NCBI GenBank assembly: GCA_031290295.1
Contig: JAITNT010000281.1
Span: forward strand, 1 to 22,557
DNA length: 22,557 nt
Source: Clostridiales bacterium
Lineage (GTDB): Bacteria; Bacillota; Clostridia; Christensenellales; DUVY01
Reading direction: 5' to 3'
Part shown: one piece after another, positions 9,987-15,316 of the stretch
Position numbering within the stretch: position 1 is the stretch's first letter
How the letters are laid out: every line of letters begins with the position of its first letter
Position numbers and translations under genes: made by a program
The notes under the pieces: generated by a model
What the model was told of the DNA's origin: nothing
Databases searched by the model: none
What the model saw: only the letters and a program-made list of their open reading frames with translations

Positions 9987-12635
9987 TTACAGCCATTCTC
10001 CGAAGCGTTTTACGTAGAGCGTTTTTATCAGCTGGGTGAAAACAAAGTAGAGGAGCAGCAGCCCCGCTAACCACGGAATAAAGATCAGCGGAAGCTTCGC
10101 CATGTCGAAGCCGTTCGCAAGGCTTGTGAAGCCGATTATGAGCGCGACCGCGGTTACCGCAAAGGTTGAAACGTACAGCGCGACCGAGGGACGGCTTTTT
10201 ATAAACGGCATTTTTGCGGTGCGGATCATGTGAATAACTAGAACCTGCGAGATCGTTCCGAATAAGAACCAGCCGCCTTGAAACAGCGGAGCAAGCTCGG
10301 GCTTGTTTGCGCCGATAGCGAACCACATCACGATAAAGCAGGCGATATCGAATAACGAGCTGAGCGGTCCTAATACCGCCATAAAGGTTTTTATCGATTT
10401 TGTTTCCCATTTGCGCGGTTTTTTAATATATTCGTTATCTACGCTGTCGAACGGAATGCCCATTTGCGAAAAGTCGCAAAGCAGATTTTGCGTCAAAATA
10501 TGCACGGGCAGCATAGGCAAAAACGGCAGGAAAATGCTTGCCGCGATTACCGAAATCATGTTGCCGAAGTTTCCGCTGGCTGCCATTTTGATATATTTTA
10601 TGATATTGCCGAACGTTCTGCGCCCCTCTATAACGCCCTGCTCCAGAACCATGAGGTCTTTTTTGAGCAGAATGATATCCGCGGTTTCCTTGGCGATATC
10701 GACCGCGCTGTCCACCGAAATACCCACGTCCGCCTGATGAAGCGGCGGCGCGTCGTTGATCCCGTCGCCCATATATCCGACGATATGACCGTTAACCTGG
10801 AGCGCCTTGACCACCCTTTCCTTTTGGGAGGGCGACAGCTTGGAAAACAAGCTGCACTCCTCCGTCGCCTTAGAAAGCTCCCCGTCGGTCATGCCGCCGA
10901 CATCCTTGCCCGTAAGACACCGCGTAACGTCCACGCCCACCTTTTGGCAGACCTTAACCGCCACGCCGGCGCTGTCGCCCGTCAGTACTACCGTGCGGAC
11001 GCCGTGCTCCTTAAGCGCCGCGATTGCGGTTTTCGCGCTCTCCTTAGGCGGATCTAAAAAGCCGACGAACCCTATCAGCACCATGTCGCTTTCGTCCTCG
11101 ACACCCAGGTTGCGCGCGTCCGGAACGTCGTTTTTTTGCGCTACGGCGAGCATTCGGAGCCCGCCCGTGTTGTTTTTTTCATAGGTTCGCATAGCCCGGG
11201 CGCGGGTTTCCTCCGAAAGGGGCAGGATTTTTCCGTCCATTTCGACAAAGGCGCAAATAGCGAGAATTTCTTCCACCGCGCCCTTGGTAATAAGCTGTCG
11301 CTTGCCGTTCGCGCTTTGGAGCGAAACGCTCATGCGTCTGCGCGAAAAATCGAAAGGAATTTCGTCCACGCAGACATATTTTTGAAGAATATCCTCAAAG
11401 CCGTTTTCCGACGCGCGGTTGATTATGGCGATATCTATGAGGTTTTTCAGTCCCGTTTGAAAATAACTGTTCAAATAAGCGTGGCGCAAAATTCTCGTAT
11501 CGTCGTCGCCGTCCACGTTCATGTATTTTTCCAAAATGATTTTATCCTCGGTGAGCGTTCCCGTTTTATCCGTGCAGAGAACGTCCATTTCGCCGAAGGT
11601 TTGTATCGCGCCCAGCGTTTTGACGATAACGCCGCTTTTGGACATGGACATAGCGCCCTTAGCGAGCGTCGACGTCATTATGACGGGCAGCATTTCCGGC
11701 GTAAGCCCTACCGCGAGGGTTATAGCGAAGAGCAAGGCCTCCAGCCAGTCCTGCTTTATAAAGCCGTTCAGCAAAAAGACGATCGGCACCATCACGAGCA
11801 TAAGCTTAATCAAAAGACCGCCGATCGCGCCTACGCCGCGCTCGAAGCTGTTTTTCGCGCGGTCGCCCGACAGGGATTTTGCCATAGAGCCGAAATAAGT
11901 CTCGTTGCCCGTCGCGAGCACCAACGCGGTCGCGCTGCCGCTGATCACGTTCGACCCCATAAAGCCGATATTTTGCAGATCGGTTAACGCGTCGTCGGGA
12001 CGGCTTCGGCTGTTCTTAAATTTTTCCACGGGGTTCGATTCGCCCGTGAGCGCCGCCTGCGCGATAAACGTATCCTTTGTGGCGAGGAATCTCACGTCCG
12101 CGGGAATCATATCCCCCGCGGACAAGCGCACAATGTCGCCCGGCACGATGCCGTCTAAGGCGATTTCTCCGAACGCGCCGTCGCGCAGAACGTTGGCTTG
12201 GTTAGAAATCATGCCCGAGAGCTTTTCCGCGGCGGCGTTAGAACGCTGGCTTTGAACGAAAGCGACCGTACTTGAAATAATTACCAGCAAAAGAATAATG
12301 GACGCCGTCAAGGGGTCCGGGGTGTCCGCGATAACGACGTCGGTCACGAAGGTGATCGCCGCTATTATCAGCAAAACGATATTGAATGGATTGATAGCCG
12401 ATTCCCGAAGCCTGCGCGCGGTGGAGTTTTTGACGCCCGCCGTTATTTTATTTTTGCCGAATTCGTCCCGCTTTTCCTGCGCCTGTTCTTCCGTAAAGCC
12501 GTTTGACGTCGCGCCTAAGGCCGCATATACCTCCTCTATAGGCAAAAAGGCGTGTTTACGCAAAAACGCGTCGCTCGCCTCCCGGCGATGCTGGATTTTA
12601 GGGTTTTTTCTATTTTTCCTTACGAAAAGCTTCAT
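9987..12635 (-). CDS. mgtA: Magnesium-translocating P-type ATPase (MgtA/MgtB)
   Basis: An 882-residue type IIIB P-type ATPase that imports magnesium into the cytoplasm at the cost of ATP. In order are the actuator TGES (197-200), the membrane motif LTPEMLP (311-317), the phosphorylation site DKTGT (356-360), KGA (451-453) in the nucleotide-binding domain and the hinge GDGINDAP (623-630). The C-terminal membrane segments include NLLCDFSQMGIPFD, characteristic of MgtA rather than calcium pumps. The start is supported by an AAGGA SD upstream of the ATG and a promoter about 45 nt upstream. The predicted leader is only about 38 nt, too short for the M-box or mgtL-type magnesium-sensing leaders known elsewhere, so control must be by another route. 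Its neighbours are unrelated. Confidence 0.95.
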   Translation of the reverse strand: MKLFVRKNRKNPKIQHRREASDAFLRKHAFLPIEEVYAALGATSNGFTEEQAQEKRDEFGKNKITAGVKNSTARRLRESAINPFNIVLLIIAAITFVTDVVIADTPDPLTASIILLLVIISSTVAFVQSQRSNAAAEKLSGMISNQANVLRDGAFGEIALDGIVPGDIVRLSAGDMIPADVRFLATKDTFIAQAALTGESNPVEKFKNSRSRPDDALTDLQNIGFMGSNVISGSATALVLATGNETYFGSMAKSLSGDRAKNSFERGVGAIGGLLIKLMLVMVPIVFLLNGFIKQDWLEALLFAITLAVGLTPEMLPVIMTSTLAKGAMSMSKSGVIVKTLGAIQTFGEMDVLCTDKTGTLTEDKIILEKYMNVDGDDDTRILRHAYLNSYFQTGLKNLIDIAIINRASENGFEDILQKYVCVDEIPFDFSRRRMSVSLQSANGKRQLITKGAVEEILAICAFVEMDGKILPLSEETRARAMRTYEKNNTGGLRMLAVAQKNDVPDARNLGVEDESDMVLIGFVGFLDPPKESAKTAIAALKEHGVRTVVLTGDSAGVAVKVCQKVGVDVTRCLTGKDVGGMTDGELSKATEECSLFSKLSPSQKERVVKALQVNGHIVGYMGDGINDAPPLHQADVGISVDSAVDIAKETADIILLKKDLMVLEQGVIEGRRTFGNIIKYIKMAASGNFGNMISVIAASIFLPFLPMLPVHILTQNLLCDFSQMGIPFDSVDNEYIKKPRKWETKSIKTFMAVLGPLSSLFDIACFIVMWFAIGANKPELAPLFQGGWFLFGTISQVLVIHMIRTAKMPFIKSRPSVALYVSTFAVTAVALIIGFTSLANGFDMAKLPLIFIPWLAGLLLLYFVFTQLIKTLYVKRFGEWL

Positions 12636-12748: not shown

Positions 12749-13075
12749 GATGGGGGAGAGAGGACAAGTTGATTGTATGGGGCGATGAAAGCGGCGAAGA
12801 GATGTTTCGACTACGCGATAGCATTGACATGGATAAAGTGAATTAGTATTCGGTACGGGTGGCACGGGCATGGATAGGGTTTTTATTGGTATAGTGTACG
12901 GAAGAACAACGGAACCCGTACCGCACGCGAAGCGCGCGAGCGGCTTTTACCCGTACTAAACGAGTACGCAGTAATAACCCGGATAAGACTATGCCGTTGA
13001 AGTCCGCCCGAATGCGAAAAAGCGAGACGAAGCCGCCGCAACGTTAGCAGCGGTACGGGTGAACGGTGACAATAC
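12749..13075. repeat. Mosaic intergenic repeat, copy R2
   Basis: This occupies most of the gap before the amt promoter. Module A (12776-12835) and module C (12977-13039) match R1 closely, but the core between them differs: R1 has module B, R2 has a section with CGGTACGGGT at 12851-12860 and 13051-13060 and its inverse at 12914-12923. A 33-bp segment (12836-12868) is flanked by the 8-bp direct repeat CATGGATA (12828-12835 and 12869-12876), as if inserted into a module that is continuous in R1. A short ORF on the minus strand here has no family look and is not called. Confidence 0.83.
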
Positions 13076-13110: not shown

Positions 13111-13139
13111 TTGACAAAGACAAAAAACCGTGATAATAT
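13111..13139 (+). promoter_or_regulatory. Promoter of amt-PII
   Basis: TTGACA (13111-13116), a 17-bp spacer and TAATAT (13134-13139) preceded by a TGA extension. Transcription should start near 13146, giving a leader of about 290 nt before the ATG at 13437. Confidence 0.85.
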
Positions 13140-13228
13140 TGTTATACATTATTGACACGGCGGAGTTAAGCGACGGCGCTCTCGGCTGTGCGGCACACAC
13201 TAAACGCATATTTACATTGTATAGATTA

Positions 13229-13242
13229 CGGCAACGGAGCTG
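13229..13242 (+). promoter_or_regulatory. Hexaloop hairpin H1 in the amt leader (ANTAR-site-like)
   Basis: A 4-bp stem, CGGC paired with GCUG (one G-U), closes the hexaloop AACGGA. A at loop position 1 and G at position 4 fit the rule for RNA sites of EutV-type ANTAR antiterminators. It shares bases with the 5' arm of terminator T1, so the two cannot form together. Confidence 0.6.
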
Positions 13243-13266
13243 AACTGCTTTCGTTGCATTTTTTTT
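13231..13266 (+). terminator. Intrinsic terminator/attenuator T1 in the amt leader
   Basis: GCAACG (13231-13236) pairs with CGTTGC (13252-13257), extended inward by a G-U and an A-U pair, and is followed at 13259-13266 by eight consecutive T. It lies about 85 nt after the predicted transcription start and overlaps hairpin H1. Confidence 0.72.
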
Positions 13267-13355
13267 GCGGAAGCGGCAAAGCCCCGTAACGCGCTAAAGC
13301 TATCGCAACCAAAAAAGCCCCCCCCTCGGGCGGGCAACATATTTTGACAGATAAG

Positions 13356-13400
13356 ACCGCGGCAAAGGAGCCGAACGACGTTCCTTTGCCGCGGTTTTCT
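13356..13400 (+). terminator. Intrinsic terminator/attenuator T2 in the amt leader
   Basis: A perfect 14-bp stem (13356-13369 with 13382-13395) has a 12-nt loop and is followed by TTTCT. It ends about 40 nt before the amt ATG and before the SD, so it must be bypassed for amt expression. Confidence 0.85.
13360..13373 (+). promoter_or_regulatory. Hexaloop hairpin H2 in the amt leader (ANTAR-site-like)
   Basis: A 4-bp stem, CGGC with GCCG, closes the hexaloop AAAGGA. It differs from H1 at only two of 14 positions and overlaps the 5' arm of T2, so formation of H2 would block T2. Confidence 0.65.
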
Positions 13401-13436
13401 GTATATAACGAAATTTTTTATTTGGAGGTAACAACT

Positions 13437-15161
13437 ATGCCGGATATTATGGACATAATGGCATCCGTCAACATGATCTGGATTCTGGTCGCGGCCGCGC
13501 TTGTGTTTTTTATGCAGGCGGGCTTCGCGATGGTGGAAGCGGGTCTTACCAGGGCGAAGAACAGCGGGAATATCATAATGAAAAATCTTATGGATTTCTG
13601 TCTCGGGACTATCGTTTTTTGGGTGTTCGGCTATGCGCTGATGCACGGCGAAAGTATCGCGGGTATTTTCGGTATTCCTAACGGAAAATTCCTTAACCCC
13701 GACGGAGATTTGGCGGCGCACATGATATTTAATACCGTGTTCTGCGCAACCGCGGCTACGATAGTTTCGGGCGCTATGGCTGAGAGAACGAGGTTCTCCT
13801 GCTACTGCCTGTATTCCGTGGTAATATCTATTTTTGTTTATCCGATATCCGGGCACTGGATATGGGGCGGCGGCTGGCTCGCCGGAATCGGCTTCCATGA
13901 CTTTGCCGGTTCTACCGCGGTACACATGGTCGGCGGCGTCGCCGCGCTTGTCGGCGCCAAAATACTCGGCGCGCGTATCGGCAAGTTCGGTTCCGACGGC
14001 AAGCCCCGCGCTATACCGGGTCATAACCTCACGATTGCCGCGCTCGGCGTATTCATTCTGTGGTTCTGCTGGTTCGGCTTCAACGGCGGCTCCACCTTCG
14101 GCGCGGTAGACGGCGACGGGTCGTTCGCCGGTACGATGGCTAAGGTTTTTTTGACGACGAACATGGCGCCCGCGGTCGGCGCGGTAACCTGTATGATTAT
14201 TACGTGGGTGCGCTACAAAAAGCCCGACGTTTCGATGTGTCTTAACGGCGCGCTCGCCGGGCTGGTCGCTATAACGGCGGGTACGGACGTGGTTACGCCC
14301 GTGGGCGCGTTCTTTATCGGTCTTATCGCGGGCGTCGCGGTTATATTCGGTATCGAAATTATAGAAAAGAAATTCAAGATCGACGACCCCGTCGGCGCTA
14401 TCGCCGTTCACGGCATTTGCGGCGCATTGGGTACTATCATGGTCGGCGTATTCGACGAAACGAGCGGGATTTGGGGCGCTATCGCCGGAAACACTCCGGC
14501 GGGCGAGGCGTTCAAGTACTTAGGCATACAAATACTCGGCGTAGTAGTCGTAATCGCATGGGTAAGCGCGGTAATGATTCCGCTGTTCCTGTTGCTGAAG
14601 AAGAAAATGCGTATGCGCGTATCGCCGCAGGAGGAAATCGGCGGGCTCGATAAGTACGAGCACAACCTTGATTCCGCTTACGCGGGCTTCTCGGTTATGG
14701 ATCTTACGGAAGGGCACAACAAGGTCGCTTCCGCAGAAAGCATCGCAATCGCCGGATCCGTACCGCCGCCGCCTGCCGCGCCGGTCGTTAAGGACGGCAA
14801 GACTAAAATGACCAAGATTTCGATGATAATTCCGCAGTCGAAGTTTGAGACGCTTAAGGAAGCTATGAACAAAATCGGAGTAACCGGCATGACCGTTACG
14901 CAGGTTATGGGCTGCGGCGTTCAGAAGGGCGGTACCGAATATTACCGCGGCTCGCCGATAGAGATTACGCTGCTGCCTAAGGTCAAGGTGGAAATAATCG
15001 TTTCTCTTGTCCCCGTCGCTACGGTAATCGACACCGCGAGGAGGGTGCTTTATACCGGCAACATCGGCGACGGCAAGATCTTTACCTACGACGTGGAGCA
15101 CGTCGTCCGCGTCCGCACGGGAGAGGAGGACTTCGCCGCCTTGCAGGACAGCGACGTATAA
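13437..15161 (+). CDS. amt: Ammonium transporter fused to a PII signalling domain
   Basis: A 574-residue fusion. Residues 1 to about 420 form an Amt/Mep channel with about eleven helices that passes ammonium across the membrane; the pore histidines are H163 (STAVHMVGG) and H325 (AIAVHGICGA). A linker of about 35 residues leads to a complete PII (GlnB/GlnK) domain at 457-574, with VGITGMTVT-like VGVTGMTVTQV, QKGGTEYYRG in the T-loop, LPKVKVEI, and GNIGDGKIF and RVRTGEED for ATP/2-oxoglutarate sensing. The residue aligned with the uridylylated Tyr51 is Ile508, so GlnD-type control is unlikely. The start ATG 13437 has SD GGAGG (13424-13428). It is expressed from a strong promoter through a leader with two attenuators. 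The fusion would let the sensor gate its own channel. Confidence 0.95.
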   Translation: MPDIMDIMASVNMIWILVAAALVFFMQAGFAMVEAGLTRAKNSGNIIMKNLMDFCLGTIVFWVFGYALMHGESIAGIFGIPNGKFLNPDGDLAAHMIFNTVFCATAATIVSGAMAERTRFSCYCLYSVVISIFVYPISGHWIWGGGWLAGIGFHDFAGSTAVHMVGGVAALVGAKILGARIGKFGSDGKPRAIPGHNLTIAALGVFILWFCWFGFNGGSTFGAVDGDGSFAGTMAKVFLTTNMAPAVGAVTCMIITWVRYKKPDVSMCLNGALAGLVAITAGTDVVTPVGAFFIGLIAGVAVIFGIEIIEKKFKIDDPVGAIAVHGICGALGTIMVGVFDETSGIWGAIAGNTPAGEAFKYLGIQILGVVVVIAWVSAVMIPLFLLLKKKMRMRVSPQEEIGGLDKYEHNLDSAYAGFSVMDLTEGHNKVASAESIAIAGSVPPPPAAPVVKDGKTKMTKISMIIPQSKFETLKEAMNKIGVTGMTVTQVMGCGVQKGGTEYYRGSPIEITLLPKVKVEIIVSLVPVATVIDTARRVLYTGNIGDGKIFTYDVEHVVRVRTGEEDFAALQDSDV

Positions 15162-15202
15162 CGTACAATACCGATTAACGGACTGAACTGATTAACGGGC
15201 TG

Positions 15203-15243
15203 AAAACGGCGAACGGGTTATCACACCCGTTCGCCGTTTTTTT
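15203..15243. terminator. Bidirectional terminator between amt and mnmG
   Basis: A perfect 16-bp stem (15203-15218 with 15225-15240) has the loop TATCAC, a T7 run at 15237-15243 for amt, and TTTT on the other strand for mnmG. The genes converge here. Confidence 0.93.
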
Positions 15244-15316
15244 AATGTAACGCATTAAAATGCGTTTTGAGGGAAGCCGGGGAATAGGGCAATTAAACGA
15301 CCGGTAGGCGATGCCG

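Follow-up and report, generated by a model that had tools for sequence, protein, structure and literature searches.

Two putative single-hexaloop ANTAR attenuators in series in the leader of a clostridial amt-PII gene

Introduction

The amt-PII fusion gene of a Clostridiales bacterium (Christensenellales; DUVY01) is preceded by a leader in which two nearly identical hexaloop hairpins, H1 and H2, each overlap an intrinsic terminator. How would such a leader be read, and would its two hairpins act together or one by one? The first-pass annotation had likened them to the sites of ANTAR antitermination and left two options, a duplicated switch or one ANTAR dimer controlling both terminators.

The accepted model of ANTAR action needs two neighbouring hexaloops. 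Previous work has shown that the eut targets consist of P1 and P2, separated among the eut genes by a linker of 5–12 nt, and that both hairpins are required in vivo (PMC3369931). The response of eutP is drastically lower with a linker of 3 or 14 nt and is ablated by loss of P1 (PMC3369931), and extension of the linker by 20 nt abolishes EutV action in vitro (PMC8934654). The SELEX consensus of NasR consists of a C:G closing pair, A at loop position 1 (A1) and G at loop position 4 (G4), and NasR binds a single hairpin at ~12 uM vs ~1 uM for the pair (PMC7496416). The 2022 structural work left open the role of sites with a single hexaloop.

A link between ANTAR proteins and nitrogen genes has been drawn before. 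Ramesh 2012 (PMC3369931) counts ammonium transporter genes and P-II genes among the predicted targets of ANTAR proteins and, in Desulfotomaculum acetoxidans, reports no fewer than 13 attenuators spread over six transcription units. In Clostridium, an antiterminator role has been proposed for NitR of C. acetobutylicum and for the product of an ANTAR gene that lies, in C. thermocellum, within the glutamate synthase cluster; the same work reports no significant change of the amt-PII gene under methyl viologen (PMC4676874).

Results

The window, by which we mean the whole stretch of 22,557 nt that was analysed, is the forward strand of contig JAITNT010000281.1 of assembly GCA_031290295.1. Its amt-PII gene (13437–15161, + strand) encodes a protein of 574 aa with an ammonium transporter domain (PF00909, E 5.6e-124) and a P-II domain (PF00543, E 5.8e-23; both Pfam). 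A promoter of the sigma-70 type, TTGACA-17-TAATAT, lies on the same strand at 13111–13139 and matches the consensus at 10 of 12 positions; from its position, the RNA is predicted to start at ~13146–13147. Because the left neighbour, a gene for a cation-transporting P-type ATPase (9987–12635), has the opposite orientation, the leader serves amt only, and its two terminators, T1 and T2, have no upstream gene on their strand to terminate. The leader (13147–13436) was more stable than 200 of 200 dinucleotide shuffles (z −4.85), and a search with the Rfam covariance models yielded no match within it at E up to 1. On the other side of the gene, a sub-threshold Rfam match to ctRNA_pGA1 at 15199–15248 (E 0.67, 23.9 bits vs a cut-off of 45) looks like a strong terminator 3′ of amt.

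Both hairpins lie on the + strand, H1 at 13229–13242 with the sequence CGGC(AACGGA)GCTG and H2 at 13360–13373 with the sequence CGGC(AAAGGA)GCCG. Each has a C-G closing pair, A1 and G4, and H1 starts 82 nt after the predicted RNA start. The positions, loops and identity at 12 of 14 letters that the first-pass annotation had given are exactly those in the sequence; 117 nt separate the hairpins, and their A1-to-A1 spacing is 131. T1 (13231–13266, + strand) has its stem at 13231–13257 and a run of eight T at 13259–13266, and excludes H1. T2 (13355–13401, + strand), with its stem at 13355–13396 and the T-rich end TTTTCTG at 13395–13401, excludes H2; the coordinates of both were derived by hand from RNAfold dot-brackets. 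RNAfold bore out the earlier description of two good terminators, T1 ending in T8 and T2 holding a 14-bp perfect stem, here part of a stem of 17 pairs, with energies of −13.6 kcal/mol for T1, which has a bulge, and −32.3 kcal/mol for T2. Folded in isolation, H1, whose stem contains one G-U pair, and H2 reached −4.1 and −6.5 kcal/mol, and since these folds are weaker than those of T1 and T2, each gate is energetically biased towards its terminator. The Shine-Dalgarno sequence of amt, GGAGG at 13424–13428 (+ strand; read from the sequence), is outside T1 and T2. Between T1 and H2, at 13317–13335, we observed a C-rich/G-rich hairpin (GCCCCCCCCTCGGGCGGGC) without an evident role.

A strict scan for a hexaloop plus terminator recovered both units from the window leader and zero units from 2000 shuffles of it. 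We define a tandem attenuator as a leader in which promoter and gene are separated by two complete units of hairpin and terminator, and the window leader is of this kind. Within the last 320 nt of the leader, H1 and H2 were the only A1/G4 hairpins of at least four pairs, and they look like ANTAR targets. A generic terminator scan had neither T1 nor T2 in its output.

We then compared 103 amt leaders, made up of the window, 79 loci from a GTDB scan and 23 loci from 61 genomes of the same order. The GTDB scan gave a longer list, of which we took the 80 top-ranking amt-PII loci and left out L041 as too short, and leaders were anchored at the start of the match, without guessed start codons. The searched genomes included none from the same genus, and the conservation seen is that of the unit type, not of the exact H1/H2 pair. 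By an energy scan in which C-G closing was a selection rule, 69 of the 103 leaders had an A1/G4 hexaloop that overlaps a terminator (successive scanner versions found the unit in 40, 43, 68 and 69), and other letter pairs at loop positions 1 and 4 occurred in only 1–11. In the strict scan, C-G closed the loop in 40 of 103 leaders vs 0–5 for other pairs. Leaders without a same-strand ORF of at least 100 codons ending within 130 nt upstream carried the unit in 52 of 63 cases. The second-best pair of loop letters was G..G, found in 11 leaders, 7 of which had no A..G unit; these leaders seem to be partly genuine, and we read loop position 1 as probably A or, less often, G. In L069 and L084, hexaloops seen by eye were missed by the energy rule.

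The stems are conserved as well. At least three further flanking pairs surrounded the CAANGGNG core in 58 of 71 cases in sense leaders; in amt coding sequence this held for 1 of 74 cores, and in antisense leaders for 3 of 12. Because this test was unselected for pairing, the pairing of the stem is no artefact of selection. In the aligned hairpins, both sides varied in 4 of 5 pairs, a count biased by the pre-selection of stems of at least four pairs. A rough covariance model from the relatives (R1; 29 units, 52 positions, 4 pairs), the kind of check that had been suggested for this leader, matched both units of the window weakly and proved too weak to use: H1-T1 came first (12.3 bits, E 0.39) and H2 third (11.0 bits, E 0.82), with an unrelated match of 11.6 bits between them. 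Run on the source genome, the same weak model gave three matches, the window units not among them, and by eye there was no nitrogen gene at those three.

Among leaders with a strong promoter (window included), the hairpin was at most 20 nt from the predicted RNA start in 28 of 33, vs 91 of 279 random anchors. The window leader, with 82 nt before H1, is an exception to this placement at the 5′ end.

Two or more complete, non-overlapping units were found in 10 of the 103 leaders. Besides the window these are L065, L068, L078, L081, L083, L086 and L108, together with the less sure L032 and L074, and by record title they are scattered across groups that include Clostridia, Erysipelotrichaceae and Sphaerochaeta/Spirochaetia. 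The L108 leader (locus ~2740–2950) has three units in series, with A1 spacings of 73 and 72 nt. Across the tandem leaders, the A1-to-A1 spacing ranged from 65 to 241 nt, the weaker cases L032 and L074 having 241 and 230 nt, and the first loop of L074 being AGCGAC. In the other 59 of the 69 leaders with a unit, it is the only one, and none of the antisense amt leaders scanned had two. In the genome G012, an operon of type III glutamine synthetase and amt carries two units in series. The amt leader of G001, a relative from the same family, has CAC(AAAGAT)GTG and a terminator immediately 5′ of the gene; farther upstream we saw by eye AAGCTTT(AATGGG)GAGGCTT, which is T-G-closed and followed by a terminator, and which we excluded from the tandem count.

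Does each unit have a recruitment hairpin of the P1 kind? We searched for an A1/G4 hexaloop of at least three pairs with its A1 14–40 nt upstream of the A1 of the unit. Such a hairpin preceded 5 of 80 units, which is the background rate (1–12 for the 15 other letter pairs, mean 5.9), and a search requiring four pairs found 1 in 79 units vs a background mean of 2.4. All three unit sets to which the test was applied were at background (2/48, 5/79 of 81 units, and 5/80), and within 14–40 nt nothing of the kind was found upstream of H1, of H2 or of the G001 amt unit. As a positive control, P1 was found at three loci beside EutV-like ANTAR genes with canonical receivers, at distances of 23, 28 and 36 nt (a Cetobacterium eutA leader, Fusobacterium and Acetoanaerobium). 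The control loci came from records of a plasmid collection, in which L277 alone is annotated as eut and L276 and L278 are unannotated, and looser unit settings were used (any closing pair, −6 kcal/mol). Of 17 non-coding candidates listed with these settings, 4 had some P1; among the five closed by C-G, P1 was present in three, and of the two without it one sits inside an annotated gene. Searches of the class with EutP (29 loci) and EutA (7 loci) supplied no dual-hexaloop leader as a control, an AmiR fragment had zero matches in the plasmid records, and the canonical-receiver ANTAR loci of G057, of the L048/L096 genomes (L266–L268) and of the L034 genome (L270, L271) had no unit. Because the hairpin is so often within 20 nt of the RNA start, there is often no room for P1.

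Genomes with amt usually also have an ANTAR gene. We picked 50 genomes out of those behind the 80 top-ranking amt-PII loci; 49 of them matched the ANTAR profile (PF03861), and the leaders of 44 of the 50 had the unit. Among 60 relatives, ANTAR was found in 24 of 25 with an amt match vs 9 of 35 without amt (p 2.9e-8). The amt-bearing genomes without an ANTAR match are G045, of the 25, and that of L090, of the 50, which does have the unit. Within the family of the source, G001 and G004 have both amt and ANTAR, and G002, G003 and G005 have neither. All genomes of the nine tandem relatives have ANTAR, with two matches in that of L065 and a single match in the other eight, from which we infer that both gates read one protein. 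In G001 the ANTAR gene is the last of an operon of class II amidotransferase, glutamate synthase, glnA and ANTAR. Units without P1 precede this operon, the type III glutamine synthetase gene and amt in that genome, and in G012, too, the ANTAR operon itself carries a unit.

The proposed search for an ANTAR gene in the source genome was formally negative: its assembly (62% complete) gave 0 matches to PF03861. Fourteen control genomes likewise gave zero, and the search works, as 33 of 61 genomes were matched in the wider search. A contig end interrupts the likely operon: contig C178 has the first two genes of a glutamate synthase operon of the same type and ends inside the second, and the source ANTAR gene may well be lost in the gap beyond. 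In the leader of this operon (L282 1834–1821, minus strand) we read by eye GAAC(GATGGT)GTTC, a C-G-closed G1/G4 hexaloop that overlaps a terminator and lies directly behind a promoter with TTGACA and, at 17 nt, a −10-like TATTCT (also by eye). The energy scanner run with the G..G letters did not return this unit. Because its loop begins with G and the reading was done by eye, we take this unit as support for the ANTAR reading, short of proof. Contig C156 encodes a type III-like glutamine synthetase, in whose leader we found no unit.

An energy scan for stems of at least four pairs in the window and 20 other source contigs (137,448 bases, both strands) gave 9 matches, of which two are the leader units and the remaining 7 were taken as background. 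A restrictive pattern had 17 matches in the source assembly vs 70 in the reversed control; two were again the leader units, and no other canonical A1/G4 unit was identified, three of the other sites being viewed. One of these three (contig C13 of the source genome, 2371–2423, minus strand) is a possible further hexaloop-terminator with a stem of 3 bp, in which GGC(AAGGGT)GCT precedes a T-rich tract and an arm like that of a terminator. Elsewhere between the genes, 12770–12900 of the window, L282 near 2678 and L283 at 420–640 have phrases in common by eye, such as 'GATGTTTCGACTACGC' and 'GGGTGGCAC', which suggests a dispersed intergenic repeat of the source genome.

The ANTAR proteins of the relatives mostly have a degenerate receiver. 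By eye, the acceptor Asp is kept in 4 of 29 proteins, the others having N, S, V, H, G, E or A at this position; these 29, from L111–L260, are part of a set of 50 ANTAR loci, and our alignment (A3) holds 21 of them, with three of the four acceptor-Asp proteins among the eight left out. Because 25 of 29 have no acceptor Asp, activation is probably by a route other than phosphorylation. We compared the G001 protein with EutV (6wsh), using a numbering that we presume to be shifted by two and the residue roles given in PMC8934654. Met172, the loop plug, is Met in G001; Tyr164 is His, as in AmiR; Lys143 and Lys147 are Lys and Arg, and Arg142 is Leu. Most of the RNA-binding face thus appears to be kept.

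Discussion

The best reading of the window leader is that of two independent single-hexaloop ANTAR attenuators in series, and we regard this reading as probable. This reading starts from what we observed, namely the anatomy of the RNA, its recurrence with conserved loop letters and stems, the absence of P1 and the co-occurrence of amt with ANTAR genes. Several observations count against it: H1 is 82 nt from the RNA start, unlike the hairpin in 28 of 33 leaders; the source assembly has no ANTAR match and yielded no further canonical A1/G4 unit; its type III glutamine synthetase leader has no unit, and its glutamate synthase leader has G at loop position 1.

The following course of events is proposed. 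RNA polymerase would start near 13147. If no active ANTAR protein were bound, T1 would form and halt many transcripts, and T2 would halt most of those remaining, so the default state of the leader would be off. An active ANTAR protein would grip the H1 hexaloop and then that of H2, and a gripped hairpin might persist long enough to block its own terminator, whereupon amt would be made. One hexaloop per gate would suffice, unlike the P1-P2 pair of eut, nas and ami. Both gates would probably answer to the same protein, and if they act independently, read-through would be approximately the product of two probabilities, which would tighten the off state and steepen the response. The likely regulator is a pseudo-receiver ANTAR protein from the end of a glutamate synthase/glutamine synthetase operon, and the nature of the target genes points to nitrogen limitation as the activating condition.

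The interpretation in the annotation is supported in part. The 102 related amt leaders, together with the ANTAR genes found in the genomes, lend good support to its ANTAR-type reading and to its duplicated-switch option.

Four other explanations were weighed. It is unlikely, though the least so of the four, that H1-T1 is a decaying duplicate with T1 as a leaky relic and that H2-T2 alone regulates. T1 is indeed much weaker than T2 and bulged, and H1 has a G-U pair, as decay would predict, but T1 keeps its T8 and H1 its closing C-G, A1 and G4, and nine further leaders also have gates in series.

It is improbable that the hairpins are read by some other factor, be it another RNA-binding protein or a small ligand. 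The missing ANTAR match in the source, G045 and L090 genomes would fit such a reader; against this, the consensus of loop and closing pair equals that of ANTAR targets (PMC7496416), ANTAR and amt co-occur strongly, the ANTAR operons of G001 and G012 carry the same type of unit, and the leader matches no Rfam family.

It is likewise improbable that one ANTAR dimer, or two touching dimers, bridges H1 and H2 as a wide P1-P2 pair and opens both terminators together. One leader does hold two hexaloops of the same type, and classical targets have two (PMC3369931), but 59 of the 69 unit-bearing leaders manage with one, the spacing in the others runs from 65 to 241 nt, and EutV loses most or all of its action when the linker is 14 nt long or is lengthened by 20 nt (PMC3369931, PMC8934654). 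Moreover, polymerase would have passed T1 before H2 is made, so by this reasoning H2 would come too late for H1. The annotation's option of one dimer for both terminators thus found no support.

That ordinary terminators carry the hexaloops as chance by-products of their stems is scarcely credible: small inner hairpins are possible in any terminator arm, and the unit did appear in 14 of 103 antisense amt leaders and 5 scan matches (at least four stem pairs) in 164,670 bases of amt coding sequence, but a terminator demands neither the strong bias at loop positions 1 and 4 nor that at the closing pair, no shuffle gave a strict unit, and with the upstream gene on the other strand these terminators would have no gene to end.

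With two single-hexaloop gates as the preferred reading, how far does the window leader resemble known systems? As in EutV/EutW control of eut in Enterococcus faecalis (PMC3369931, PMC8934654), an A1/G4 hexaloop overlaps the 5′ arm of a terminator, the default is off and the genes are related to nitrogen. Unlike eut, which needs P1 and P2, the window has one hexaloop for each terminator and no P1. Since EutV needs P1 in vivo (PMC3369931), single-loop action contradicts the only detailed model. The C:G closing pair, A1 and G4 of H1 and H2 are those of NasR/nasF (PMC7496416), and AmiR, of AmiR/amiE, also has a pseudo-receiver (PMC8934654) and an ANTAR domain that aligns with that of the G001 protein, whereas nasF and amiE are both described as two-hairpin targets (PMC3369931). 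The nitrogen regulons of Ramesh 2012 share the amt and P-II targets and the use of several attenuators per transcription unit, but the search model described there required two hairpins (PMC3369931). The Clostridium NitR/ANTAR cluster of glutamine synthetase and glutamate synthase likewise has its ANTAR gene within the cluster, with the difference that the account of it in PMC4676874 gives no RNA target. Tandem leaders of the riboswitch type also place independent sensor-plus-terminator units in series under one signal, for which a digital, pseudo-cooperative output is expected; there a tRNA or small molecule is sensed directly, whereas the sensor in the window is likely a protein.

In titles and openings of abstracts, a scope that leaves out most subscription journals and supplements, we met no description of single-hexaloop ANTAR attenuators, or of serial ones before amt. 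The earlier remark that no case with this layout is known needs qualifying by the multiple attenuators per unit of Ramesh 2012. In one respect the layout is more ordinary than the annotation supposed, since 9 of the other 102 leaders have tandem gates; in another it is stranger, since its units have none of the P1 hairpins by which ANTAR targets are defined.

We lean towards a broader proposal, that across a wide range of Clostridia, and in some other bacteria, the genes of ammonium assimilation use single-hexaloop ANTAR antitermination without the recruitment hairpin P1, with the hairpin often at the extreme 5′ end, read by pseudo-receiver ANTAR proteins made together with glutamate synthase and glutamine synthetase, and with gates, up to three, placed in series to sharpen the response of amt. 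If this is true, the dual-hairpin rule of EutV is not general, and a search built on hairpin pairs may overlook part of a large nitrogen regulon. Natural tests of that rule are plentiful among the amt leaders, where P1 is missing and often has no room, and serial ANTAR gates would be a protein-run counterpart to tandem riboswitches.

A last difference from EutV concerns activation. The receiver of EutV is phosphorylated (PMC8934654), unlike what the 25 of 29 relatives' proteins without the acceptor Asp would allow. By gene linkage, P-II or glutamine synthetase are candidates for the activating signal of these degenerate-receiver proteins.
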